Part shown: in pieces, positions 290-62,826 of the stretch
How positions within the stretch are numbered: the stretch's first letter is position 1
Layout: each line of letters begins with the position of its first letter
NCBI RefSeq assembly: GCF_040687965.1
Contig: NZ_CP156084.1
Span: 1,192,501 to 1,256,500, forward strand
Source: Methylocystis echinoides
GTDB taxonomy: Bacteria; Pseudomonadota; Alphaproteobacteria; Rhizobiales; Beijerinckiaceae
DNA: 64,000 bases
Reading direction: 5' to 3'
Made by a program: the position numbers and the translations under genes
Notes under the pieces: model-generated
What the model saw: only the letters and a program-made list of their open reading frames with translations
Databases searched by the model: none
What the model was told of the DNA's origin: nothing

Positions 290-343
290 GGCGGCGAGGG
301 TTCGCAGCCGCCCCCCGCGCGACCCGCGTGGGGGCCGCCGCAT

Positions 344-1006
344 TTATTTGACGCGCGCGATCAGAAAACCGTCCCAACCCTTCGAGCCGACCGTCTGGAT
401 CGCCGTCGCGGCGACGCGCGGCTCGGCGGCGACGGCGTCGAAGAGCGCCCGCGCGCCGAGGCCGCCGTCATCCGTCGTGGCGGCGTCGGCGACCGCCCCT
501 TCCCTTACGACATTATCGACGACGATTAATGCGCCCGGCCGGGAGAGTTGGAGCGCCCATTTGAAATAGGCTGCATTGTTGGTCTTGTCGGCGTCGATGA
601 AAGAGAGATCGAAGGGCGCGCCGCCTTCGGCGGCCAGCTTCGGCAGAATGTCGAGCGCGGCGCCGACCCGCAGATCGACTTTCTCCGCGACGCCCTCGCG
701 CGTGATATTGTCGCGCGCAATCTCTGCATGGCGCGGCTCGAATTCGATCGTCACGACCTTGCCGCTCGGCGCCAGCGCCCGCGCCAACCAGATCGTCGAA
801 TAGCCGCCGAGGGTTCCGATTTCGAGAATGCGCGTGGCGCCGGTCGCGGCGGCGAGCAGATGCAAAAGCTTGCCCTGCGGCGCAGAAACATCGATTGCGG
901 GCAGGCCGGCGCGCTTGTTGGCGTCGAGCGTCGAGTGCTGCCCCTCCTCGGGCGCGATGAGGCGATTTGCAATGTAATCGTCGACCGCTCGCCAACTCTC
1001 TGTCAT
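344..1006 (-). CDS. SAM-dependent O-methyltransferase (family 3, CCoAOMT-like)
   Basis: A 220-residue class I methyltransferase, the usual length for the bacterial relatives of caffeoyl-CoA/catechol O-methyltransferases. The SAM-binding motif I (LEIGTLGGYST) lies near residue 62, the acidic loop VVTIEFEP near 85, and the metal-binding/catalytic stretches FIDADKTN near 140 and VVDNV near 163 match the divalent-cation-dependent family. It transfers a methyl group from SAM to a hydroxyl of a small molecule, but the substrate cannot be read from sequence. It is cytosolic, with no signal peptide. It stands alone, convergent with the repeat protein to its left. Confidence 0.88.
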   Translation of the reverse strand: MTESWRAVDDYIANRLIAPEEGQHSTLDANKRAGLPAIDVSAPQGKLLHLLAAATGATRILEIGTLGGYSTIWLARALAPSGKVVTIEFEPRHAEIARDNITREGVAEKVDLRVGAALDILPKLAAEGGAPFDLSFIDADKTNNAAYFKWALQLSRPGALIVVDNVVREGAVADAATTDDGGLGARALFDAVAAEPRVAATAIQTVGSKGWDGFLIARVK

Positions 1007-11993: not shown

Positions 11994-14238
11994 CCGCCGA
12001 TTCCTTGTCAGAGCCCGCGTCTATGTCTCTCGATTCGATCTTGTCAGGTTCAGCGCCGTATCCGTACCCGTATCCGTAGCCGTAACCATAGCCGTAATCT
12101 CCGCCGAAGCCGGTTTTCCGCGGATCGTATTTTGTCACGATCATGCCGATCGGAGTTACGCGAGACCGTTTCAGTCTCTTGATGGCGTTCCGGATCAATC
12201 CAATGCGTCCCTGTCCGGCGGCGACGATGAACAGGGTGGCTTTTGCAATATTGCCGAGCACCAGAGCGTCCGCCATTCCCATCACGGGCGGGGCGTCGAT
12301 GATGACCATATCGAACACTTCGCCGCTCGAGGAAACGAGGGAAGCGAAGCGAGCGCCGTTCAGCAATTCAACCGGATTCGGCGGCGTCGGTCCCGCGGAG
12401 AGAATGTGAATATTGGTGTATTCGAGCTCGCGGATGGCTTCGCCCAGATCGCAGTTGTGAGTGAGATAGGTGCTCAGGCCGATGCTGTTGTCGATCTGCG
12501 CCTTTTCATGAAGGGCAGGTTTGCGCAAATCTGCGTCGATGACGAGAACCCGCACGCCCAATGCGGCAAATCTATTCGCGAGACCGAAGGCGACGCTGGA
12601 TTTCCCCTCGCCTGGGGTCGAGCTTGTAATAACGAGCGTTTTCGGCGCCCCCGCCTCGGTCGAAAACTGAAGCGACGTGCAGGCGGATCTGAACGCCTCG
12701 GAGATCGCGGATCGCGCGTCGGCCGACTCCTCTTCGAACGACCTGCCCGACGGCGGCTTCGGAATGATCCCGTGCAACGTGAGGCCGCAAGCCCTCTCCG
12801 CCTCCGCGGGATCGTGGACCACGTCGTCGAAGTGCTCCAGAGCGAAAGCCCCGCCGACCCCGATCACGAGCCCCAGGCCCAGGGCGATCGCCATCACAAA
12901 AGGTCGGTTGGGCGAGCTCGGCGAGGATGGAAGCTGAGCTCTTTCGACGATGAAGACGTTGTTTGTGCCGATGCCGCTGGCGACGTCCACTTCCTTGTAT
13001 CGCTGCAACAAATTTTCATAGAGCGAACGCGTCGAATCCACTTCCCTCTTCAGGATGTTGTACTGAATGCTCCGCTTCTGAAGATCGAGCGTGTCCTGCC
13101 GCAGCTTTTCGATTCGCTCCTTCATCTGGTTTTCTTGGCTCAAAGACCCCTCATAGGCGGCCTTCAGCGATGATTTTACCGTTTTGACCTCGACGCCGAG
13201 CTGATGCTCCAGCTCTTTGATTTTGCTGCTCAGCTGCACCATCTCGGGATAATTGGCGCGAAACGTCTGCGACTTTTCTTGATATTCGGCGACGAGCTGC
13301 CCGCGCCTGGATCGCAAGTCTTCAATCGCCTTGTTGGTCAAGAGCTGCGGCAAGTCGATGCCCGTGGCGCTCTCCGCCTGACGCCACAACTGCTCATTCT
13401 TGATGCGTTCGGCGATGATCTGGCCCAGCGCCGTGTTTGCGGCAGAGAGGCTGTTTTCGGCAACCGAAGCCTTGTCGGACGTGCCGACGATCTGCTCCTT
13501 CTCGGCGAAGGCGATCATGGCCTTTTCGGCCTCTTCGAGCCGAAGCTTGAGCTGCTTGAGCTGGTCTTCCAAGAAGGACTTTGCGTAGGCGTTGGCCTGG
13601 AACCGCTTATCCAGATTGGCGGCGACGTAACCGTCGCCGTAAGCGTTCGCGACTTTTTGCGCCCGCGAAGGGTCCGCGTCCGTATAGCTGATGTCGACCA
13701 GGCGGGTTCCCGGTATCGGCTTGACCGAGACGCCGCGCAGCACGGTCCCCCCCGCCGCATGATCGCGCTCCGACCGATCGCTGGGGCTGTCGCCCTTGGC
13801 GCTGGATTCACGGTCCAGGCGCAGGCGGGACGCGACGCGCTCCGCAAGATTGCGCCCCTTCAGCAACTCCAGCTCCGTGTTCAGATAATCCTCTGAATAA
13901 TCTATCTCGCCCGGCGCCCTGTTTTTGTCGGAGAGAATATTCGTCGCGCTCTTATCGATCTGAACCCTGATGGTCGCCGTGTAGAGCGGCTTTTGCAGCA
14001 AAATCCACAGCAACCCGAGAGCGAGGCATATTGCCGCCGCGACGCCGATCAGTCGCTTCCTCTTGAGGAGCACCCTGACGATCTCGCGAAGATCGAGATC
14101 AGAGCTTTCTCCCTGCGCTTCTCCAAAGTAGCCGCCCATGTCAGGATAAACGTAGCCGCCCGGCCATTTGGCGGAGCTCTGGGTCATCGGCCCTCGGTTT
14201 TGGGGCTCAACCTGAACAGGCAGTTCTCTCTCGGTCAT
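11971..14238 (-). CDS. polysaccharide co-polymerase/tyrosine autokinase (Wzc/ExoP-like BY-kinase)
   Basis: About 755 residues. An N-terminal Wzz domain has two transmembrane helices (~60 and ~450) flanking a long coiled-coil periplasmic part. The cytosolic C-terminal BY-kinase carries Walker A (STPGEGKSS near 543), Walker A' (VLVIDADLRKP near 567) and Walker B (MVIIDAPPVMG near 650). The tail has seven Tyr-Gly pairs in a row, the usual site of autophosphorylation, here unusually regular. It controls chain length and export with the Wza-like protein encoded 29 nt upstream, and should be the substrate of the PHP phosphatase at 9134. Confidence 0.93.
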   Translation of the reverse strand: MTERELPVQVEPQNRGPMTQSSAKWPGGYVYPDMGGYFGEAQGESSDLDLREIVRVLLKRKRLIGVAAAICLALGLLWILLQKPLYTATIRVQIDKSATNILSDKNRAPGEIDYSEDYLNTELELLKGRNLAERVASRLRLDRESSAKGDSPSDRSERDHAAGGTVLRGVSVKPIPGTRLVDISYTDADPSRAQKVANAYGDGYVAANLDKRFQANAYAKSFLEDQLKQLKLRLEEAEKAMIAFAEKEQIVGTSDKASVAENSLSAANTALGQIIAERIKNEQLWRQAESATGIDLPQLLTNKAIEDLRSRRGQLVAEYQEKSQTFRANYPEMVQLSSKIKELEHQLGVEVKTVKSSLKAAYEGSLSQENQMKERIEKLRQDTLDLQKRSIQYNILKREVDSTRSLYENLLQRYKEVDVASGIGTNNVFIVERAQLPSSPSSPNRPFVMAIALGLGLVIGVGGAFALEHFDDVVHDPAEAERACGLTLHGIIPKPPSGRSFEEESADARSAISEAFRSACTSLQFSTEAGAPKTLVITSSTPGEGKSSVAFGLANRFAALGVRVLVIDADLRKPALHEKAQIDNSIGLSTYLTHNCDLGEAIRELEYTNIHILSAGPTPPNPVELLNGARFASLVSSSGEVFDMVIIDAPPVMGMADALVLGNIAKATLFIVAAGQGRIGLIRNAIKRLKRSRVTPIGMIVTKYDPRKTGFGGDYGYGYGYGYGYGYGAEPDKIESRDIDAGSDKESADDGSAAA
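12055..12096 (-). repeat. six-base tandem repeat encoding (Tyr-Gly)7
   Basis: Seven consecutive TAC/TAT-GGN hexamers on the minus strand inside the autokinase gene. Codons are mixed (GGC, GGT, GGA, GGG), so the repeat is not a fresh slippage product. It encodes the tyrosine cluster of the kinase. Confidence 0.85.
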
Positions 14239-51886: not shown

Positions 51887-51961
51887 TGGGGCGTCGCCAA
51901 GTGGTAAGGCAGCGGATTTTGATTCCGCCATACGGAGGTTCGAATCCTCCCGCCCCAGCCA
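51887..51961 (+). tRNA. tRNA-Gln (TTG), attachment target of the integrated element
   Basis: TGGGGCG/CGCCCCA acceptor stem, G discriminator and encoded CCA, anticodon stem GCGGA/TCCGC around loop TTTTGAT (anticodon TTG), T-loop GGTTCGAATCC. Its 3' 17 bases form the left end of the direct repeat of the integrated element and remain functional. Confidence 0.96.
51945..51961 (+). repeat. attL: 17-bp direct repeat within the 3' end of tRNA-Gln
   Basis: TCCTCCCGCCCCAGCCA, identical to 62346-62362. The left boundary of the 10.4-kb element. Confidence 0.9.
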
Positions 51962-52183: not shown

Positions 52184-52197
52184 TGACTTTTAAGTCA
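52184..52197. promoter_or_regulatory. dyad TGACTT-TT-AAGTCA at the start of the toxin-antitoxin-like operon
   Basis: Perfect 6-bp arms, ending on the first base of the start codon at 52197. Position and symmetry suit an autoregulatory operator bound by the HTH protein encoded second. No ribosome binding site is visible before the ATG. Confidence 0.4.
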
Positions 52198-52760
52198 TGA
52201 TTTATGATCTAACAATCGAGAAGGCCGAAGCTCTAAGAAAATGCGAGCGGGAAGGCAAACTCCTTGAAGTGTCTGGCTTGGTCCGAGCGAGGTCGATCCG
52301 CAGGCGTGTGTGGATCAGAACAAGTCTGATGCAGGAACTGTTCGGCAAAAACGGGGGCGAACCGCAACATTGGGCGGCTGCCGATGTGCAAGCGTTCCTC
52401 AAGCGCTTTGTACAAGGGGAAAAAATGGTCATGATTTTTGCCGAACGTGGCCTAGGCGCATTTCCTGATTTCAAATTGACCAAGGGAGGCGGAAGTCCAT
52501 TTTTTGAAATCAGGTTTGATCTCGAACCGAATCGACCACCGCAGGTTCGGCTTTTCGGTCGATTCATCGCCACGGATTGCTTTGTCATAACGTCTATCGG
52601 CGAGAAGGGGCCAACCGACACAAAGGGAAAGACTAAAACCATCGATGTGGCAGCGCATAGGAAGGTGTGCCAGAGGACGTTCGACAATTGTGACTTGACT
52701 CGAACGCCTTGGATTCCGGACCCGGAGGGATCCATGTCTAGTGTGGAGATTGCAAAATGA
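52197..52760 (+). CDS. RelE/HigB-like toxin candidate with long N-terminal extension
   Basis: About 187 residues. The central part, ~105-160 (FFEIRFDLE, then VRLFGRFIATDCFVITSIGEKG), follows the pattern of the RelE-superfamily toxins and phage-derived Gp49-like proteins, with the basic C-terminal stretch that would bind the ribosome or RNA. The N-terminal ~100 residues are an extension I do not recognise. Its stop overlaps the next gene's start by 4 nt (ATGA), and that gene encodes a helix-turn-helix protein, the classic HigBA order (toxin first). Function is inferred from context and pattern, not proven. Confidence 0.5.
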   Translation: MIYDLTIEKAEALRKCEREGKLLEVSGLVRARSIRRRVWIRTSLMQELFGKNGGEPQHWAAADVQAFLKRFVQGEKMVMIFAERGLGAFPDFKLTKGGGSPFFEIRFDLEPNRPPQVRLFGRFIATDCFVITSIGEKGPTDTKGKTKTIDVAAHRKVCQRTFDNCDLTRTPWIPDPEGSMSSVEIAK

Positions 52761-53230
52761 AGCCGAAGCAGCAAACGGTTGCCAGAAAAGAAAAGCAAAA
52801 AGCGACCACACAAGCAGTTTCTGCTTTTGAAAAAAAGGTTGCCATCGCGTTCCTGACCCAACAGGTCCTTTCTGCTTTTTCAGCCAAGCTGATCCAACTC
52901 AATAAGCAAAAGGGCTGGGGACAAGCAGACTTGGCCCGGCGTTTAAACATCGATCCTAGCCAAATCTCGAGGTGGCTTGCAGGAAGGCAACCGAACATGT
53001 CGCTTGAGTCGACTGCGTTGCTAAGCCTTGCAATGCAGTGCGAACCCTCGTTTGAGCTCATAGACTTAGAGGTTGTTGAGGAGCGAGGAGCGGAGATCGA
53101 ACTCGAGGCTGAGGCGTTGGATTGGACCTGCGAGATAAGCGACGATGACGAGTGGGGGACCATCAATGAATTTGAGAACGAGGACTTACAGACGCTTGAG
53201 AATTACTACGAAGTAGAAGAACTGTGCTGA
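52757..53230 (+). CDS. XRE-family HTH protein, likely antitoxin
   Basis: About 157 residues. The helix-turn-helix spans ~48-80: QKGWGQADLARRLNIDPSQISRWLAG. The N-terminus is basic, and the acidic C-terminal ~50 residues (EEWGTINEFENEDLQTLENYY and similar) look flexible, as in antitoxins that neutralise by wrapping a toxin. ATGA overlap with the upstream gene shows translational coupling. It probably binds the dyad at 52184-52197 (inference). Confidence 0.6.
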   Translation: MKPKQQTVARKEKQKATTQAVSAFEKKVAIAFLTQQVLSAFSAKLIQLNKQKGWGQADLARRLNIDPSQISRWLAGRQPNMSLESTALLSLAMQCEPSFELIDLEVVEERGAEIELEAEALDWTCEISDDDEWGTINEFENEDLQTLENYYEVEELC

Positions 53231-53248
53231 GATTGAAAGCAAGTACCG

Positions 53249-53791
53249 ATGGCCAAAGGAATTACTAACGCTGCGGCTGAAAATGAACCGCCTATCCGGA
53301 TCTTGCCTGGAGCAATTATCTGCGATCACGTTAAAGATGATCCGCATTCGGGTCTCACGCTCTTGGGCGCTCGAGTGGGAGTTATGTTGGTTCCGAGGTC
53401 TCCAGGAGCTGAATACAAGTTTCGTGTTGTATTGCCTATAATGCACAAGACAGCTGGCGATTATGTTATCCGCATGATCGCTGCTGCAGGAAAAAAACAG
53501 CTCTTCTCTGGCGCTTTGAAAGTAAAAGCTGACGGTAAGAATGGGGTAGGTTACGTAAATACTCCCCCCTTCAAACTGCGCCTTGAGGCACCCTCCGTGC
53601 TAACGATCTCCTTTGGAGTGGAAGGCTTTCCACTGCGTCCTGCAATTGTATTGGCCTTGATTAATGAAGAAAAGGAAAAAACTATGAGTGAAATACCTCC
53701 GCTTGGAACGCCGACGAATCAGGCCGTCGAATCGAAAATCGTAAAGGCTAAGCCGAGGCGAACTAAAATCTCCTCTACTCCGCAGAAATGA
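53249..53791 (+). CDS. conserved-looking protein of unknown function (possibly DUF6941-like)
   Basis: About 180 residues. A beta-rich domain of ~110 residues (IICDHVKDDPHSGLTLLGARVGVMLVP, then FRVVLPIMHKTAGDYVIRM; spans ~22-75) resembles the beta-sandwich of DUF6941 proteins, but this is from memory and uncertain. A basic, unstructured C-terminal tail (KAKPRRTKISSTPQK) follows. No signal peptide, so cytosolic. It follows the HTH gene by 18 nt and may belong to the same operon. Confidence 0.5.
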   Translation: MAKGITNAAAENEPPIRILPGAIICDHVKDDPHSGLTLLGARVGVMLVPRSPGAEYKFRVVLPIMHKTAGDYVIRMIAAAGKKQLFSGALKVKADGKNGVGYVNTPPFKLRLEAPSVLTISFGVEGFPLRPAIVLALINEEKEKTMSEIPPLGTPTNQAVESKIVKAKPRRTKISSTPQK

Positions 53792-54059: not shown

Positions 54060-55601
54060 ATGAAATACGAACTGCCGAGCAGCCATGGCCTCCCTCATGA
54101 GATAGTCTCGAACCCAGAGCTTGTTCCGAGAACCGCCGAGGGGGACCCATCGTTAACTGACGTTCAGTTTGCCGCCTTAGAGGCTGGTGTTGCCCGTGGG
54201 GCATCTTTGCTCGTGGTAGCGCCTACCTCAACCGGGAAAACCCTTATAGGCATTTGGGCCCTAGCAAGTTGGTTGAAGAGCGATCCTAGACACCACGCGG
54301 TCTACCTGGTTACCCACCGCGCATTAGCGGCTCAGAAGTTCGAGGAGTTGGATGCCCTGCTAAGACCGTCTTGCTTTCAAGGCGACGGAAGCTGCATCGT
54401 TTTAGCTGATGGCGACTCGATAAGGGATGGAAATGGAAACACTCCGATCGAGCCATTAAACGTTCCGGTATTGGTAGCGACCTACGAAAAGTATCTTGCC
54501 ATGCTGGCCGGCAGCGGCATTAGGGAAGACATGTCCCATTGCGCTGTCGTCTGTGACGAAATCCAGATTATTGGAGATCAGCACAGAGGTAAGCAGATCG
54601 AAGTCCTAATGACTATTTTGAGGATGGCGCGATGGGGCCAGGTGGTTGGTCTTTCAGCAGTCCTGGAGGCCTCCGATGCAGAAGCGTTGAGCAGCTGGCT
54701 TGACGTACGGCTCATCAGATCCACCCAACGAGAGAAGCACTTAAGGTATGAGTGTCGCAGGCCTGACCGGGTCCAGCTCTTCGAAACGACGCGGGATAAC
54801 GGCGACATAACTGAGGAAGCTCGCGGGCGTGAGCGAAGCATCGACACTATAGGAATCGTAAGGGAGCTCCTAGCTGAAGGCGATTGTCTGCCGGTAGTTG
54901 TGTTCTGTATGACAAAGAATAAAGTCTTTGAGTTAGCGCAGGAGTTCGCTGAGTCCAAAGGCGTAACTGTGGGGCCGCGTGTTAGCATCCATGAGGAACT
55001 CGCGGACGCGACCACCTCGGCGCTAGAGCTTACGAGCTACCTTCAGCATCGGTTCGCCTACCATTCGGCCGATCTCTTGCAAGCAGAACGTGCACTGGTC
55101 GAAAAGTCTATAAAGGCTGGTGATGTCGATGTGGTCTTTTCAACAAGCACTTTGGCTGCGGGCGTCAACTTCCCGTTCCGAACGGCAGTTTTTGATAGCT
55201 GGAAAAGGTACAATCAGAGGACACAGATACATGAGCCGATCCCGGCGAGTGATTTTCAGAACATGGCTGGGCGCGTGGGCCGCATGGGTTTTGAGGGAGA
55301 CTATGGCCGAGTTCTATTTACAGCAGAGAATGGATTTCGAGAGCGGGCGGCAAATGTTTACTTATCGCCGGATTTAGTTAGTCAACTAGAATTACGCCTG
55401 CGCCCGGAGGCATTCACTCATCTAGCTCTACAACTAGCTTCGTCCGGCATTTGCAAGACTAAAGCAGAGGTTGAATCGTTTTTGACGGGAACCTTGAGCG
55501 CAGAGCGGGAGCGGGCACGCAACAGAGCAGGATTAGCTCACTGGCAGCAAGCGGTATCAAGTTCCATCGACGAACTAAAAGCTTGGGGCTTCTTACTATG
55601 A
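54060..55601 (+). CDS. Ski2-like superfamily 2 helicase, N-terminal half (DEAD + helicase C domains)
   Basis: About 513 residues. Motif I APTSTGKT at 54-61, motif II DEIQ at 166-169 (unusual: Gln for His), motif III LSAVLEA near 198, motif IV VVFCMTK near 280, motif V STSTLAAGVNFP near 361-372, motif VI QNMAGRVGRMG near 400-410. It ends just after the helicase C domain with a short winged-helix start. The ratchet and helix-hairpin-helix parts of Ski2 proteins are absent here and instead open the next gene, which starts at an ATGA overlap. It may unwind nucleic acid as one half of a two-protein machine. Confidence 0.8.
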   Translation: MKYELPSSHGLPHEIVSNPELVPRTAEGDPSLTDVQFAALEAGVARGASLLVVAPTSTGKTLIGIWALASWLKSDPRHHAVYLVTHRALAAQKFEELDALLRPSCFQGDGSCIVLADGDSIRDGNGNTPIEPLNVPVLVATYEKYLAMLAGSGIREDMSHCAVVCDEIQIIGDQHRGKQIEVLMTILRMARWGQVVGLSAVLEASDAEALSSWLDVRLIRSTQREKHLRYECRRPDRVQLFETTRDNGDITEEARGRERSIDTIGIVRELLAEGDCLPVVVFCMTKNKVFELAQEFAESKGVTVGPRVSIHEELADATTSALELTSYLQHRFAYHSADLLQAERALVEKSIKAGDVDVVFSTSTLAAGVNFPFRTAVFDSWKRYNQRTQIHEPIPASDFQNMAGRVGRMGFEGDYGRVLFTAENGFRERAANVYLSPDLVSQLELRLRPEAFTHLALQLASSGICKTKAEVESFLTGTLSAERERARNRAGLAHWQQAVSSSIDELKAWGFLL

Positions 55602-56947
55602 GTTTATTGTACGCAACGGACGTGGGCAAAGCAGTGGCGGCCAGCGCCCTCCTGCCCCAAACTGCTGCTTATCTTCTTGAATACCTAGCAAGTCGTGGAC
55701 CGAGACTAGCTGGTCTCTTACCCTCTGATGATGGAAACGTAGGGGAGCCTGATAAGCTTGCATTCTGCTTATTCCATGCATGTCTGTGTTCACCAGAGTT
55801 TTCGGGAGTTCAAGGAACCCGTTTCATCCCGTATCACTTGGCCACAAACCAAGTGAATGCTCTTGCAGACCAGTGCCGACCTCTTCTGGTTGACGGAGGG
55901 AGGTGGGAAGCGAACAAATCGGCCGCTAATGGTTCAAGTTTGTTAATCTCTTGGATCAACGGGGAGCACATACCCAGTTTGGAGCGAATGTATCCAGGAC
56001 TGCGCGCAGGCGTCATACAGACGCTTTGCCACGATGTTAATTGGTGCCTCACGGGTATCACGAACATTCTGGCGATAGCTACCCGGAGTTCACTCCCCGA
56101 AGCCGAAAGACCGACAGCTTTCAGACGTTTGTCTCCTGACGAACTCAGTCGCTTGAGATCGCTTTTGCCTTCGCTGCGCCTACTCAGTCGACGATTAACC
56201 GTAGGTCTTCCCGATAACATTTTATGGATGATGGATCTCAAGTCTGAGAACGGGCGGCCGCACATCCGGCGTAGGGAAGCTATAGAGCTAAGATCCGCGG
56301 GTTTCTCGTCTTTCAACCACTTTCGGCAGCGCACAAACTGGCCTGCTCTAATCTCCGTGTTCAGAAGCCTCGGAATCAGAGATGCGCAGGGTCATGCGGA
56401 AATCTTGCAGCGTTTGGCTAACGAATGGCACATGAAGCAGCGAGTTCGTTGTCTTTCCCAGCAGAGAGTAAGCTTAACCGGTGAAGATCGTCTCCTGTTA
56501 GAAAATCTCTACGCAACACGGGACTTGGAATTTCAGAGATCTTTAGAGGCTTTGCTGAATCGAGCTGGACTCAGCTTTACTCTTTTCGATGACGGCACGA
56601 GACCGGGGGCATTCGATTATCTATTGCACGTGGGGGAAAGACCAGATCTGGTCATTGAGTGCAAAACCAAACAGAACAACGGACTAGTTGACTTAAACAG
56701 TGCCCGCGTCGTGCTTGCCAGCGCCTCGCAATACGGTTTCGACGAAAACTTCTGTATAACTGTCTGTCAGCCGGGGATTGATCCAAATGTGCCGGAGCAT
56801 CTGCAGGGGTGTGCAAAGCTAGCTGTGGTCGAAACACACGACCTTGCTGCCGGATTAGTTAAGGTCATAGCGGGCGTTATGACCCCCGCGCAGCTTCACG
56901 ATTGGCTGAGCCAGCCCGGCCAAGCAACTGTAGAAACTATGGGTTGA
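55598..56947 (+). CDS. helicase ratchet/HhH-type protein with C-terminal PD-(D/E)xK nuclease
   Basis: About 449 residues from ATG 55598, overlapping the helicase stop as ATGA. Residues ~1-260 resemble the C-terminal half of Ski2/Hel308 helicases: winged-helix start LYATDVGKAVAASALLPQT, ratchet phrase LLISWINGEHIPSLERMYPGL near 115-135 and helix-hairpin-helix phrase RRREAIELRSAGFSSFN near 224. The C-terminal ~130 residues form a restriction-endonuclease-like fold with D340 and the E354-C-K356 motif (DLVIECKTK), typical of PD-(D/E)xK. The pair looks like a split helicase-nuclease, probably acting against foreign DNA (inference). Confidence 0.7.
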   Translation: MSLLYATDVGKAVAASALLPQTAAYLLEYLASRGPRLAGLLPSDDGNVGEPDKLAFCLFHACLCSPEFSGVQGTRFIPYHLATNQVNALADQCRPLLVDGGRWEANKSAANGSSLLISWINGEHIPSLERMYPGLRAGVIQTLCHDVNWCLTGITNILAIATRSSLPEAERPTAFRRLSPDELSRLRSLLPSLRLLSRRLTVGLPDNILWMMDLKSENGRPHIRRREAIELRSAGFSSFNHFRQRTNWPALISVFRSLGIRDAQGHAEILQRLANEWHMKQRVRCLSQQRVSLTGEDRLLLENLYATRDLEFQRSLEALLNRAGLSFTLFDDGTRPGAFDYLLHVGERPDLVIECKTKQNNGLVDLNSARVVLASASQYGFDENFCITVCQPGIDPNVPEHLQGCAKLAVVETHDLAAGLVKVIAGVMTPAQLHDWLSQPGQATVETMG

Positions 56948-57782: not shown

Positions 57783-58472
57783 TCATCCGTGTCCAGGAAT
57801 GTGCTTTCGGACGAACTCAATCACGGCAGAGCGATTTGACTTCAACTCTTCCTTTTTTAGACCCTTGCTTCGGTTCACAGCTACGCTTGGGATGCCTCTG
57901 GCGTCGCAGGCGGCTTTCCCTCCGCCCTCTGCTTGGCTGGCCCACAATCCTATGAAAATGACAGCGCGGGGCTTCAGTAGGTCCAGCCATCGCTGGAAAT
58001 GCAAAGTTCGGCAGGTAGCGGCAGTCGCCTTGTTTGGCGGGCTGTATTTTTGGCCGGCCCTACTTGTGCGGCAGCGAACCAGATTGCAGTAGGCAATCTC
58101 CTCCAGAACAAGGCCGCATTCCACCAGAGGAAAATACTGCCCATGCACTGGCCAGGTCGGAATGAAATCGTCTAGGAGGCCTTGCAGATGTGAGTAGCTT
58201 GCGACCGTTTCGGTATCGCGCAGGGCTCGGAGGGCTGCGGTGTAAACCCGGTCTGCATCTCCCAACCGTTCGTTTGGCAAGCCAGGGTTCTGCCCGACCA
58301 GCAAGAGCTTACTGCGATCGTAGTGGCGGCCTATGTAACCCGGCTGCGGGACGTTTTCGTTCGAGTCTCGTAACAAATTCTTGTCAGTGGCGGCATTGCA
58401 CTCAGCGCACTTGAGAACCTTAACGAACTCCTGATGCCAGGGCACATCTGCAATAGGGTCTTCGTCTATCAT
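57783..58472 (-). CDS. uracil-DNA glycosylase-like protein
   Basis: About 229 residues from ATG 58472, 6 nt after GGGGAGG. The phrase LLLVGQNPGLPNERLGD near 55-71 corresponds to UDG motif A, followed by YCNLVRCRT near 128 and RWLDLLKPRAVIFIGLWASQ near 160. N-terminal Cys pair CAEC could bind metal. The usual C-terminal HPSP motif is not seen, so catalysis is uncertain. Found on the element beside the recombinase and on its strand (158 nt apart). It might excise bases or sense modified DNA, for example in phage genomes (inference). Confidence 0.62.
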   Translation of the reverse strand: MIDEDPIADVPWHQEFVKVLKCAECNAATDKNLLRDSNENVPQPGYIGRHYDRSKLLLVGQNPGLPNERLGDADRVYTAALRALRDTETVASYSHLQGLLDDFIPTWPVHGQYFPLVECGLVLEEIAYCNLVRCRTSRAGQKYSPPNKATAATCRTLHFQRWLDLLKPRAVIFIGLWASQAEGGGKAACDARGIPSVAVNRSKGLKKEELKSNRSAVIEFVRKHIPGHG

Positions 58473-58703
58473 CCTTTGCCTCCCCGGCGAGCTAAGTAGC
58501 CAGCTCAGTCGACTAAGCAAGACACTCAGTGAACGCCTAAGAAACTTGGGAAGACGCTAACCCGTCTCCGTGTTGCTCAATCGCAACATAAGCTCGCTGA
58601 CCTGAAGAACAAGCATTAGAATCAGTATTGAGTGAGTTTTTCTTCGTTCGCTAAAACGTTTCTGTCCTTCTTAGGACGGATACAAAAAGCGAATGGAGAT
58701 CGA

Positions 58704-59369
58704 ATGGAAAGAAGTTGCAAGGTGTCTGGATGCTTGTCGCCAGCGAGTGGATACGGAGTTTACTGCTCCAAACATAAAGCTAACGACAGGCGTCATGGCG
58801 ACCCCAACCAAAAAGGGGTTACAACAGCAGAGCTTAAACCGTATCGAGCCATGGTTACCGCCCGAATCCATAAAAACATCCAAAGTTCCGTTTGGCAGAT
58901 GGCCGATCAAAGGTGGAACGCTGTAGTCCAACTGGCGGAAGGCATCCTGAACCGATTTGCAAGCGGTAGGCCAGGGATCGGCTGGGAGCGGAAGGCCGCT
59001 GTGGAGGTAGTAAAACTCTCCCGAAACGTAGCTGCTAGGGAAGTCGTCGAGAACGTGCTGGCAATGTATCTGATGCTGGACATGGAACCACGGCGGTTCG
59101 TTACTGATAGGGCGTTCAGAACCCAACTGGTAAGAAGGGTGCGTGGTCTCACGAGAATAAACGCCCGAGAATGGGTGGACCAAGATTCTGGCAGGCTCAA
59201 GCGAGTATACACTGAGTTGCCCCCAAGGGTGACACGTTCAATTGGAGAGTGGCTTGCTTCCGCCTTAGGGGGCATCGGAGTCTACCTTGCCAATCTAGAA
59301 AGAGAGGAAGTCCGAGGTAGGGATCGAGAAGCACGGGAACTGACCGAGGCTTTAGAGGGGGTGCGGTGA
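58704..59369 (+). CDS. zinc-finger protein of the element, unknown function
   Basis: About 221 residues from ATG 58704. The N-terminus has a Cys/His cluster C-x4-C-x9-C-x2-H (CKVSGC, YCSKH near 21, then RRHGDPNQ), a small zinc ribbon seen in several phage and satellite proteins, often with HNH nucleases, but no HNH motif is present. The rest is helical and basic. It overlaps the primase-helicase start by 4 nt (GTGA), so they form an operon and may act together in element replication or its control. Confidence 0.6.
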   Translation: MERSCKVSGCLSPASGYGVYCSKHKANDRRHGDPNQKGVTTAELKPYRAMVTARIHKNIQSSVWQMADQRWNAVVQLAEGILNRFASGRPGIGWERKAAVEVVKLSRNVAAREVVENVLAMYLMLDMEPRRFVTDRAFRTQLVRRVRGLTRINAREWVDQDSGRLKRVYTELPPRVTRSIGEWLASALGGIGVYLANLEREEVRGRDREARELTEALEGVR

Positions 59370-60718
59370 CAATGAACGTTCACGTTAAGGAGACTACGAT
59401 ACTGCCGCTGGAAGATGCCCCAGAGTTCAAGAAATTGGTCAGTCAAGTTCGGAATGAGTTGGTAGAGAAGTTTGCTTGGTCTGCCCAGCACGACGGGATC
59501 GTGTATCGCCAAGACCCATTAAAAGCTCCACCGATGAAAGACGCTACTTTCAACCGGATTTCAAGGAGCGCACATTCTTTTCTCTACATAAACAAGAAGG
59601 GAAAGAAAGACCGATGGTATGAAAGTTTCGAGGACGTATTGAGTGCCCTGGACGATCCTGACAGTGACTTTGGTTTCGTCATGGCGGAAGCCGTGGAGTT
59701 TCTTCCGGGTCAAAGCGAACTAAGCAAGGACGGCTTAGGCAGGTTGGTCCTGAACCTATGGCGAGCGCCCCCTTGGCAGATCATCGCAGATGCTGAACCA
59801 CCGCAACCGCTTCTCATTCACCTTGCATACCTCTTTGATGGGGACCAGCAGGCTGTAGATCACATCCTGGACTTCATGGCACACCTCCTTCAACGGCCGG
59901 AGGAGCGAGTTAATCACGCCATTCTGTTGACGAGCGAGGCCAAGGGCATTGGTAAATCCACGCTTGGAACGATTGTACGGCGGCTCGTTGGCCAGAGGAA
60001 CAGCCGAGTCGCTCAGTCGAAGGACTTGAAGAGTTCGTTTGACGGGTGGCTCGTGGGACAGCTCATCATTCAGGTAGACGAGATTTACGAATACGGAAAC
60101 TGGGATCTAGCCAACAAGCTGAAGCCGATCATTACGGAGCCGACTGTCAGCGTGAACATCAAATACGGCCCAGAGATGGAGGTTCAGAACTTCGCCAGAT
60201 TGTTAATGTTCTCCAATCACGAAGCTCCCATCGACCTTGAGGAGGGTGATAGGCGGTACTTCGTGTTCAACAGCAAAGCCCAACCGAAGGACACGCTCTA
60301 CTACGAGGAGCTGAATGCCTACATCGACTCGAAAGAGGGAATGAACGCCATCTACACCTTCCTGATGAAACGTGATTTATCCCGGTTTAAGCCCTTTGCT
60401 CCACCGCCACTCACGGAGGCGAAGAAGGCGATCATCAAAGCAAGCGGCAGTCCTCTCAAGCATTACATTGCCGAGGTGGTCGCCAATGGGCATCTAATGA
60501 GGGAGTTGCGGAGAGAATTTACCTTAGACGAGTTGGTGCGGCAGCTGACAAAAGAGGGGTACGGGCAGCAGGTAAAGAACACAAAAGAACTCGGAATGGC
60601 CCTTAAAGCGGCAGGGGTCACTCAGGGGAGGCGTGGATCGGGCGAAAGGCGCGTGCGGGTCTACATCCTGCCGGAACCTGTCGAACCGATGGCCTCGATT
60701 GAAGACGCCGAGTTTTAA
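59366..60718 (+). CDS. phage/plasmid-type primase-helicase (superfamily 3, DUF5906-like)
   Basis: About 450 residues. SF3/D5-like ATPase: Walker A TSEAKGIGKSTLG near 189-201, Walker B IIQVDEIYEYG near 234-244, and sensor phrase LMFSNHEAP near 280. The N-terminal ~150 residues contain no recognisable prim-pol catalytic motif, so it may be the helicase loader/helicase part of a replication initiator. Start is either GTG 59366 (GTGA overlap) or ATG 59372; GAGGGGG lies upstream. Satellites and integrative elements use such genes for their own replication after excision. Confidence 0.82.
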   Translation: MTMNVHVKETTILPLEDAPEFKKLVSQVRNELVEKFAWSAQHDGIVYRQDPLKAPPMKDATFNRISRSAHSFLYINKKGKKDRWYESFEDVLSALDDPDSDFGFVMAEAVEFLPGQSELSKDGLGRLVLNLWRAPPWQIIADAEPPQPLLIHLAYLFDGDQQAVDHILDFMAHLLQRPEERVNHAILLTSEAKGIGKSTLGTIVRRLVGQRNSRVAQSKDLKSSFDGWLVGQLIIQVDEIYEYGNWDLANKLKPIITEPTVSVNIKYGPEMEVQNFARLLMFSNHEAPIDLEEGDRRYFVFNSKAQPKDTLYYEELNAYIDSKEGMNAIYTFLMKRDLSRFKPFAPPPLTEAKKAIIKASGSPLKHYIAEVVANGHLMRELRREFTLDELVRQLTKEGYGQQVKNTKELGMALKAAGVTQGRRGSGERRVRVYILPEPVEPMASIEDAEF

Positions 60719-60821: not shown

Positions 60822-62228
60822 CTATTCGGGTTCTCGGCCACTCTTGTTTCTGATTGGAAGCGTCACCGATTCAACACAAGCCTGCTTGGCCGCTAAACTG
60901 GTATCCCCGGCATAACGGCCCATGGTCATACCAAGAGGCATGTCCTCCTTTGAATGCCCAATAACCTCGGCAATCGTCCAAGGCGAGTAGCCGGTAGCAC
61001 CGTTGTCGAGTGCATCGGCTGCTTTCTTGGAGAACCATCGACGGAAGCTGTGGAAATCAACCCTCGATTGTCGTGCTCCAGGGAGCCTGTCATCAACACC
61101 GATCCGCCTTCTGTAATCGGTGAAGCGTTTGGAGATTTTTTGCGACCGCTCGACCGGACTCCCTTCTGCTGGCGTCGGCAGTTCGTCGAAAAGGAAGGAG
61201 TCTAATGGTTTACCCTTACAACGCCGCTCGAAGATGTGGAATAAAGAAGAGTGTATTGGTACTTCTCGCTCGCCTGCAGGGGTCTTCGCCAACTTGACAT
61301 CGATGACTCCGTTCTGAACATCTCTTATCCGCAACTGAGCAATTTCCTCGACCCGCATTCCAGATAGCGCCGCTATGAAAATTGCGTCCATAAGGTACTC
61401 GGGAGGATCGTTAGAGATAAGCTTCAAAACTTCCTCGTCCGTATAAGGCCGCTTCTTTTCTTGCTTGGAAACACGACGCTCCGGCAAGGATTGGCCCTGC
61501 CATACGTTGTCTTCAACATGACCCTTTCTACGCAACCATTTCCAATAGGATGACAGGCAGGAAATGTCCTTGTTAGCGGTCCGCCAGTGAGCGCCTCTTT
61601 CTACAAAGGCTTTTGTCACGTAATCACCAGCCGCTTTTCTGGTGACGGCTTCGATTGTTAGAGCGTGCCCGTTGAGACCCAGCCATCTGTCCAACTTCAA
61701 AACTGCCCTACGGTAGTCGATCTTCTGTCGAGGCTTCATGGAAGATTCGGCCAACCACTGGTTGATAAACGTGACAAGTAGCGTTTCCTCCCCTGAAGCT
61801 ATCTTGTAGAAAATCGAACCAGCCCCTGGGTTACCTGCCTCTGACAATTCTTGTGCCCGTTCCGAAATAAGGGAACGCATCACCATTGGGCCATCGGCAA
61901 CCACCTCGCCCCAAGGAGCTATCTCCTGCCCGTAGCTAGGGTCCTTCAGAGCTCGCTGCAGTTCTTTCCTGTAATCAAGTGCATCCCGGACAATGGGGTT
62001 TTGTAGTGAGCCGCTTCCCGTTTCCAGTTGCCTTTGCGCAGAGGCGATCACCTCCCTGAATTCAGCGACCACGTTCCAGCGTAACGCATTAGCTTTCGCT
62101 AAGCTGTCGGTTTTCAAGGGTCGAACTAACTTAGCTTTTCCGACGATGTGCCGTACGGGCGCAGGTACCTTAACCTGAACACGCCATTGGTTACCGTGCT
62201 TTTCCAAGTATCTTTTGTCGAGAGCCAT
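60822..62228 (-). CDS. tyrosine-type integrase of the tRNA-Gln element
   Basis: About 468 residues from ATG 62228 (MALDKRYLEKHGNQWRVQ). The frame continues to 62375, but that extension is translated from the attR repeat and junction, so it is not coding. An N-terminal arm-binding domain and SAM-like core-binding domain precede the catalytic domain: Arg in ALSGMRVEEIAQL near 310, HSFRRW near 403, GHS near 438 and the nucleophile Tyr in MGRYAG. It catalyses integration into and excision from the 3' end of tRNA-Gln. It reads inward, toward the element. Confidence 0.92.
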   Translation of the reverse strand: MALDKRYLEKHGNQWRVQVKVPAPVRHIVGKAKLVRPLKTDSLAKANALRWNVVAEFREVIASAQRQLETGSGSLQNPIVRDALDYRKELQRALKDPSYGQEIAPWGEVVADGPMVMRSLISERAQELSEAGNPGAGSIFYKIASGEETLLVTFINQWLAESSMKPRQKIDYRRAVLKLDRWLGLNGHALTIEAVTRKAAGDYVTKAFVERGAHWRTANKDISCLSSYWKWLRRKGHVEDNVWQGQSLPERRVSKQEKKRPYTDEEVLKLISNDPPEYLMDAIFIAALSGMRVEEIAQLRIRDVQNGVIDVKLAKTPAGEREVPIHSSLFHIFERRCKGKPLDSFLFDELPTPAEGSPVERSQKISKRFTDYRRRIGVDDRLPGARQSRVDFHSFRRWFSKKAADALDNGATGYSPWTIAEVIGHSKEDMPLGMTMGRYAGDTSLAAKQACVESVTLPIRNKSGREPE

Positions 62229-62259
62229 CTGCGCCGGTTCTAAAGCGAATGTACGCCAC

Positions 62260-62282
62260 GGGTACACCAATCTGGTACACCA
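62260..62282 (+). repeat. two 10-bp arm-like repeats near attR
   Basis: GGGTACACCA (62260-62269) and TGGTACACCA (62273-62282), about 63 bp from attR. They mirror the pair near attL. Confidence 0.55.
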
Positions 62283-62345
62283 TAAAAAGCCTATTTGAAA
62301 TGGATAATCAATACTTTCAATTAGAAAAATGCCTATGACGTAGGC

Positions 62346-62362
62346 TCCTCCCGCCCCAGCCA
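62346..62362 (+). repeat. attR: 17-bp direct repeat
   Basis: TCCTCCCGCCCCAGCCA, identical to the 3' end of tRNA-Gln at 51945-51961. The right boundary of the element. Confidence 0.9.
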
Positions 62363-62479
62363 AGGTTTTCTGCAAGTCTCGGTTCTGCCTTCAGCTGTCC
62401 GGCGCTCGACGTGGGCTCGTGGCCCGCGTTGTCACATTCACCGACGGATAGGCTTCGGCGCGCGATTGAGGCTCCGCCG

Positions 62480-62826
62480 TGAGCTACAACGCCCTCGTTT
62501 TTGCGCCCCAGATCATCGCCGATCGCGTCCGGCTCCTCCCTCGAAGCGATCAGCGCCTCGGGGGATTCCCGCAACCCGCCTTCATTTTCGGCGTTCTGCC
62601 CCTGGTGATTGCGACGGGCGCCGGCGCCAATGCGCGACGATCGCTGGGCGTCACTGTGCTCACCGGGATGCTGTCGTCGACCTGCCTCGCGGTCGTGCTG
62701 GTTCCAGCATTTTTTGTGGTTCTGCAGCAATTGGACGAGAACAGGCGGCGCAGCAAACAGTTGGTTGCGCGGCCGCGCTCCGAGGAGAGCGCAAACGATG
62801 CGACTTCAGCTCCGCAGAGTCCGTAA
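62480..62826 (+). pseudogene. remnant of an RND efflux pump permease (C-terminal end)
   Basis: A ~40-residue stretch (FIFGVLPLVIATGAGANARR, then GVTVLTGMLSSTCLAVVLVP) is the conserved second-to-last and last transmembrane region of AcrB/MexB-type permeases, with a truncated hydrophilic tail. Upstream, homology is lost in this frame but traces continue in another (LEAISAS), indicating a frameshift and loss of more than 900 residues. It lies directly outside attR and represents an old deletion or insertion scar. Confidence 0.6.

Follow-up and report, generated by a model that had tools for sequence, protein, structure and literature searches.

Gene pair and its fused relatives

The window analyzed here is a 64,000-nucleotide stretch of the Methylocystis echinoides genome (NZ_CP156084.1, positions 1,192,501 to 1,256,500), in which an integrative element carries two overlapping genes, P0001 and P0002. 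As judged from sequence alignment and structure models, the pair belongs to a family that joins a Hel308/POLQ-type helicase to a C-terminal PD-(D/E)xK-like domain, and the window copy of this design is in two pieces that together amount to one protein of about 960 amino acids. The sizes and coordinates of the two open reading frames (ORFs) and their ATGA overlap, given in an initial annotation, were all verified (Table 1).

Single-chain relatives were found in several places. A tblastn search with P0002 identified two Cereibacter plasmids among 72,556 plasmid records, on which one gene of 962 amino acids spans both halves. Further relatives were found in genome G203, Asaia krungthepensis, Paracoccus versutus, and genomes G1023 and G1055, the last belonging to the window's own taxonomic family. 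As the two Cereibacter plasmids gave the same match figures, they were counted once, leaving six other distinct loci. All six are open through the break site, and the window alone is split, which bears out the proposal that one helicase-nuclease design is laid across two genes. None of the relatives found shares the split; the two-gene arrangement therefore stands alone in a family otherwise encoded by one gene, and, given its unbroken relatives, it is most simply regarded as derived. In a tree of helicase cores, the window copy is the earliest branch of the family (fork 92/98, not starred).

The family is thinly spread. In alignment-based searches (A2 and A3) of overlapping genome sets, matches were obtained in 1 of 398 genomes (the window's own), 1 of 18 (G203), 2 of 295 (Paracoccus, which is G758, and G1023), 2 of 248 (the window's own and G1055), 1 of 150 (Asaia, which is G759), and 1 of 234 (the window's own). 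Of 385 genomes searched, nine gave matches at E ≤ 0.01, of which seven were at chance level (14.7–17.9 bits) and only the window and G203 count. No relative was present among 50,697 phage records, in two scans of viral contigs, which depend on short conserved peptides, or in the first scan of genome contigs. The Asaia and Cereibacter copies share 89–90% identity; Cereibacter belongs to the Rhodobacterales and Asaia to the Acetobacteraceae, and this identity was taken as a sign of mobility. The Cereibacter copies lie on conjugative plasmids. The Asaia gene runs off one end of a 7,170-base contig (L013, NZ_BAPV01000006.1) and its start lies at the opposite end, so that the contig probably represents a small circular plasmid that was opened within the fused gene.

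The break does not lie at a domain border, as had been proposed, but inside the winged helix, between its two wing strands. In the family alignment, P0001 ends (IDELKAWGFLL) at the first wing strand, and P0002 begins, after its methionine, with SLLYATDVGKAVA at the second, the two being three columns apart. A model of the fused Paracoccus protein, of which the C-terminal half alone was used because its residues 1–443 have a predicted local distance difference test score (pLDDT) below 50, places the wing strands at residues 504–507 and 510–513, flanked by helices 487–500 and 515–523, and this region (residues 501–520) is well modelled, with a pLDDT of 80–82. Thus, the cut falls in the wing turn.

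Helicase half

P0001 contains DEAD (E=1e-17) and Helicase_C (E=1e-8) domains in Pfam. The initial annotation had credited it with helicase motifs I–VI; five of these (I, II, III, V, and VI) could be read directly in the protein and stand, starting at GKT-59, DEIQ-166, SAV-199, TSTLAAG-362, and QNMAGRVGR-400. The Hel308 model PRK02362 scored 176 bits (E=1e-51), and the best PADLOC match was HamB1 (120 bits, 2e-35). P0001 remains far below the equivalog cut-offs of the Hel308 models (176 versus 887 bits and 127 versus 1200 bits). Hel308, HELQ, and POLQ are repair helicases. The order of the superfamily 2 (SF2) core, winged helix, ratchet, and helix-hairpin-helix (HhH) is the same in Hel308/HELQ and POLQ as in the present family, on two chains in the window and on one in its relatives; the family differs in its extra C-terminal PD-(D/E)xK-like domain and in being bacterial and mobile. 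The PADLOC candidate PDC-M23B also matches P0001 and five fused members (1.4e-28 to 3.6e-33), with the best stretches in the helicase core; no PDC-M23A was among the matches listed, and no paper naming PDC-M23 was found in the open-licence literature.

Second half and predicted nuclease domain

P0002 had no family match in Pfam, NCBIfam, or PADLOC and no useful match among PDB sequences. Its domains were assigned from a structure model built on an alignment of three sequences (mean pLDDT 73), which is unreliable (pLDDT <50) at residues 332–339 and 359–404. The model resembles the C-terminal halves of Hel308 and POLQ (top three Foldseek matches E 2.6e-4 to 8.7e-4; best 9b15/2va8, E 3–6e-4). Residues 1–275 were superposed by VIA-align on Hel308 2zj8 with a Z of 17.5 (3.6 Å, 213 residues), and residues 205–284 on the HhH region of NusA with a Z of 7.6 (1.9 Å, 68 residues). 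As predicted by this model, the beginning of P0002 is the C-terminal part of a Hel308-type helicase that P0001 lacks, as the initial annotation had suggested.

The last approximately 150 residues are modelled as helix-strand-strand-strand-helix, followed by more strand-helix units. D340, E354, and K356, named earlier as the putative catalytic residues, are present and invariant in all seven family members; in the model, D340 precedes strand 341–345, and E354 and K356 lie within strand 351–356, an arrangement consistent with PD-(D/E)xK. Weighing against a nuclease are the fold matches, which were weak (VRR_NUC 4qbn, probability 0.30; EcoRV, probability 0.33; E about 3), and the searches of sequence families, in which no good match was found. 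When the members of the nuclease alignment were compared with Pfam, six families, HSDR_N (0.017) among them, were each matched by one of seven members (best 0.013), and the four matches of the alignment profile in the PDB (best 0.023) included none that was credible. The VIA-align list for P0002 was filled by residues 1–293, and the missing nuclease-fold rows were thus not read as a new fold. Given the weak fold matches and the partly unreliable model, the C-terminal domain is likely, at most, to be a PD-(D/E)xK nuclease.

State of the split

Whether the window copy works as two chains is a separate matter from its family. No further break occurs in about 960 codons of the pair, and all checked helicase and nuclease residues are kept in the aligned window copy. 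The downstream half decays no faster than the upstream half, the ratio of C-terminal to N-terminal divergence being 1.13–1.21 for six pairs that include the window and 1.04–1.37 for the 15 others.

The strongest competitor is that the split is non-functional, an ordinary fused gene having been interrupted near the junction by an indel, either a recent mutation or an error of sequencing, so that the window copy is dead or misread. We consider this a serious possibility, somewhat short of even. In its favor, all six other loci are fused, the break lies mid-domain, and the frame relation is −1. Programmed −1 frameshifting was considered and rejected, since no X XXY YYZ heptamer occurs in the shared open stretch 55475–55601 and no stable RNA structure was found (z +1.2); the lack of any such sign also favors a broken gene. 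On the other hand, an exact ATGA with almost no out-of-frame tail is uncommon under random indels. When one-base deletions were simulated in five fused genes, leaving out the Asaia gene because it is cut at the contig end, an ATGA junction arose at 0.5–5.3% of positions, and at 0.5–1.8% within five codons; with one-base insertions, this geometry is impossible (0%). The unbroken remainder of the pair also argues against a broken gene, and the genome, rated 100% complete and 0.11% contaminated, speaks weakly against widespread frame errors.

Several points weigh against a working split. The ATGA feature was picked after being seen, and some start-stop overlap arises at 15–45% of deletion positions in the fused genes. 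Moreover, the split is known from one genome, in one copy and mid-domain, and no second split copy was found in searches A2 and A3. Taken together, the two sides are nearly balanced, and a functional split is favored slightly at most, with the ATGA junction pointing mildly that way. Even if the window gene were broken, the family could still be defensive, and our preferred reading could hold for the family at large.

Integrative element

The proposal that the pair is mobile cargo in an integrative element was confirmed by an integrase, 17-bp tRNA-Gln repeats at both ends, and foreign GC content. The 10.4 kb between the attachment repeats have a GC content of 49–57%, as opposed to 63–71% on the left (44.5–52 kb) and 60–63% on the right. 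Because the listed TTG start of the integrase lies beyond attR, its true start is probably further in. The element also holds a serine resolvase and a uracil-DNA glycosylase (UDG)-like gene, and with these and the DUF5906/VapE-like gene aboard, it would resemble a phage satellite or a similar integrative element.

Table 1. Positions in the window of the gene pair and of the features that define the integrative element
Feature	Position	Strand	Basis
tRNA-Gln(ttg), element attachment site	51887..51961	+	ARAGORN
attL, 17-bp repeat equal to the tRNA-Gln 3' end	51945..51961	+	Exact match search
Helicase half P0001, 513 amino acids (RecA1, RecA2, winged-helix start to first wing strand)	54060..55601	+	ORF, hidden Markov model, alignment
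ATGA overlap (P0001 stop and P0002 start, frame −1)	55598..55601	+	
Nuclease half P0002 (predicted), 449 amino acids	55598..56947	+	ORF, structure model, alignment
P0002 predicted layout: second wing strand, Hel308-type ratchet and HhH, residues ~1–290; PD-(D/E)xK-like domain, residues ~300–449			
DUF5906/VapE-like replicative primase-helicase	59366..60718	+	DUF5906 E=4e-20, P4-family primase C-terminus E=5e-7
Tyrosine integrase	60822..62375	-	Phage_integrase E=2e-9
attR, second 17-bp copy	62346..62362	+	Exact match search

Of 149 family genomes, 9 others had relatives of the integrase (E ≤ 1e-40). Stretches of 12–16 kb were taken from four of the nine, and two of them, L048 and L051, also share the resolvase and orf245; in L048, a tRNA-Gln gene lies 8 kb from the integrase. 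Neither the helicase half nor the nuclease half was found in the four related stretches at E ≤ 1e-3. Thus, the pair is variable cargo. The integrase nearest to that of the window (59–60% identity over 306 residues) is at L048:13398-14716, with an internal stop in G1153. No clean empty site was found in 38 other genomes of the genus, in which the listed matches stop at the end of the tRNA gene or at most nine bases from it. The right flank, 62363–62660, was not next to a tRNA-Gln gene in the matches listed from the genus, and its part 62577–62649 matches other places in five genomes of the genus; an older insertion or a rearrangement may have occurred at this flank.

The UDG-superfamily-like protein (57783–58520, minus strand; E=4e-5) scored 24.1 bits, just below the Pfam cut-off of 24.3, and a tblastn search at 1e-3 did not find it in any of the four related stretches. 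Upstream of the helicase, 52197–53791 holds a 187-amino-acid protein of no family, a protein with a Cro-type helix-turn-helix (HTH), and a 180-amino-acid protein without a credible family; the HTH protein has weak PADLOC PDC-M64 matches (5e-8). The toxin-antitoxin-like pair of the initial annotation was not confirmed: its second gene has a Cro-type HTH, but the 187-amino-acid partner had no family match. The three genes are maybe a second cargo module.

Defence context

Defence-type genes adjoin the family gene in two of the six other loci, those of Cereibacter and Paracoccus. On the C. azotoformans plasmid (L011), the neighbors are DarT (5.6e-16), an ADP-ribosylglycohydrolase (4e-35), and a UvrD/GajB-like protein, and those of the Paracoccus copy are a RES protein (8e-18) and a PADLOC 'cll' match (4e-20). 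In all, three genes, including these last two, adjoin the Paracoccus copy (L014:3106-5964), and a large serine recombinase lies at 12442–14175 of L014. Counting against a defence role, no defence neighbor was seen at G203, G1023, G1055, or Asaia, where only three neighbors in all were scanned: LysR and YkuD at G1055 and an AMP-binding/thioesterase enzyme at G1023, the neighbors at G203 and Asaia being read as ORFs only. From context and analogy, a defence role of the family is plausible.

Alternatively, the protein could serve the element itself, in replication, fork repair, or transfer, or could act in general repair. We regard this as improbable. The DUF5906/VapE module and the UDG-like gene on the element, the copies on plasmids, and the repair function stated for HELQ in the available text of PMC12278908 are all in keeping with such a role. 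However, L048 and L051 have the same integrase type, resolvase, and orf245 yet lack the helicase-nuclease, no other protein of the window element was found within the 20 kb examined at G203 and at G1055, and the gene is sparse, with 2 of 248 family genomes including the window's own.

Relation to Hachiman and other known systems

According to the available text of PMC12278908, Hachiman HamAB consists of a Ski2-like DNA helicase and a nuclease effector, and HamB detects DNA ends with 3'-5' polarity and switches the nuclease on. The present family is alike in pairing such a helicase with a predicted nuclease; it differs in that HamA is absent here, the nuclease-like domain is on the helicase C-terminus or on a second chain, and the helicase core is probably of another clade. 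HamA (PF08878) had no match in the window genome (G000), while 4 of 80 family genomes matched, and none was found among the ten element proteins at E ≤ 10. Only 32 residues lie N-terminal of the DEAD match in P0001; the matches of the core to HamB1 profiles start at about 110 to 320 of the profile. The HamB accessory domain that binds HamA, NAH, lies N-terminal to the helicase core.

The helicase cores were compared in a tree of 18 sequences, drawn with a midpoint root for display only. A search of plasmids with the Paracoccus protein had returned 63 records, two with at least 80% coverage, and seven of the remaining 61 were opened (H5, H7, H9, H10, H12, H16, and H17). Six of the seven were proteins of about 1,000 amino acids that carry a Peptidase_C14 caspase domain at the N-terminus (E 3.5e-8 to 2.9e-16), and the seventh, from Methanomethylovorans, was an archaeal helicase of 769 amino acids. 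In the tree, the seven family members group together (100/100), and the six caspase fusions form a group (100/99) that joins the fused and split family in a larger group (97/96), making them its nearest helicase cores. Outside this larger group are the archaeal helicase and, at a fork of 87/94 that was not starred, four HamA-linked helicases, which were labelled HamB solely by adjacency to a PF08878 match. As the HamB branches are few and long and two of them meet, exclusion from HamB is no more than probable; the family core probably belongs to another clade.

That the pair is a diverged Hachiman system is very unlikely: the HamB1 match of P0001 and the shared logic of helicase plus nuclease favor it, but no HamA is encoded in the genome or element, the Hel308 model scores above HamB1 (176 versus 120 bits), and the caspase fusions and fused proteins form a group (97/96) from which the four HamA-linked helicases are excluded, the tree being suggestive only. 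The separation from Hachiman drawn in the initial annotation therefore holds with respect to HamA.

Helicase-nuclease fusions in defence are already known from BR systems (available text of PMC12839542), as are HamA fusions (available text of PMC12799240). The Type-1 BR helicases are similar in having an active C-terminal PD-(D/E)XK nuclease on a helicase in a defence setting; they differ in their Swi2/Snf2 helicase, TUDOR domain, and multi-gene BREX-related loci, as far as the available text of PMC12839542 describes them.

The caspase fusions carry Peptidase_C14 at the N-terminus (6 of 6), unlike the fused family with its C-terminal nuclease-like domain; their C-termini were screened by Pfam and, for four of the six, by PADLOC. 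They are located on plasmids at L015:4155-7160, L016:4119-7133, L017:4101-7151, L018:4146-7244, L035:3119-6145, and L037:3128-6247, their hosts are Alphaproteobacteria, Bacteroidota, and a Nitrospirota metagenome-assembled genome, and their existing annotation is that of DEAD/DEAH box or superfamily II helicases. No paper on the present family or on caspase-Hel308 fusions was recognized among the matches listed in the open-licence literature. It is possible that these fusions are an undescribed defence family.

Proposed mechanism and meaning

The reading that we prefer, with about as much in its favor as against it, is that the pair encodes a mobile defence protein, a DNA-sensing helicase-nuclease that is produced in this genome as two coupled chains. 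The chains, translated from the ATGA-coupled ORFs, would come together at the winged helix that they share to form one motor of Hel308 type. By comparison with Hel308 and HamB, this motor could load on 3' single-stranded ends or forks exposed by phage replication or DNA damage and move 3'-5', after which the C-terminal PD-(D/E)xK-like domain would cut DNA, with loss of the phage genome or death of the cell as the outcome. The action would be like that of Hachiman, with the effector on the C-terminus of the motor instead of a separate HamA, and with a helicase most likely of another clade. In this scheme, the relation to the fused proteins comes from sequence, the fold of P0002 is predicted, and we infer the coupling and assembly.

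A wider proposal is that mobile bacterial Hel308-type helicases swap effectors, with an N-terminal caspase in one branch and a C-terminal PD-(D/E)xK domain in the other, as an immune class parallel to Hachiman, and that the window form is an obligate two-chain enzyme split in the winged helix. In this combined form, it is speculative and on balance unlikely.

Since Hel308 is stated to be absent from bacteria in the available text of PMC12278908, a mobile bacterial clade of Hel308 type is notable in itself. If the split works, the window would hold a natural two-chain helicase broken mid-domain. Should the family be defensive, Hachiman's genome-integrity sensor helicase would have a separate Hel308-like counterpart in bacteria with its effector built in, a neighboring branch would carry a caspase as effector instead, and effector-swapping on one DNA-sensing motor would be directly testable.

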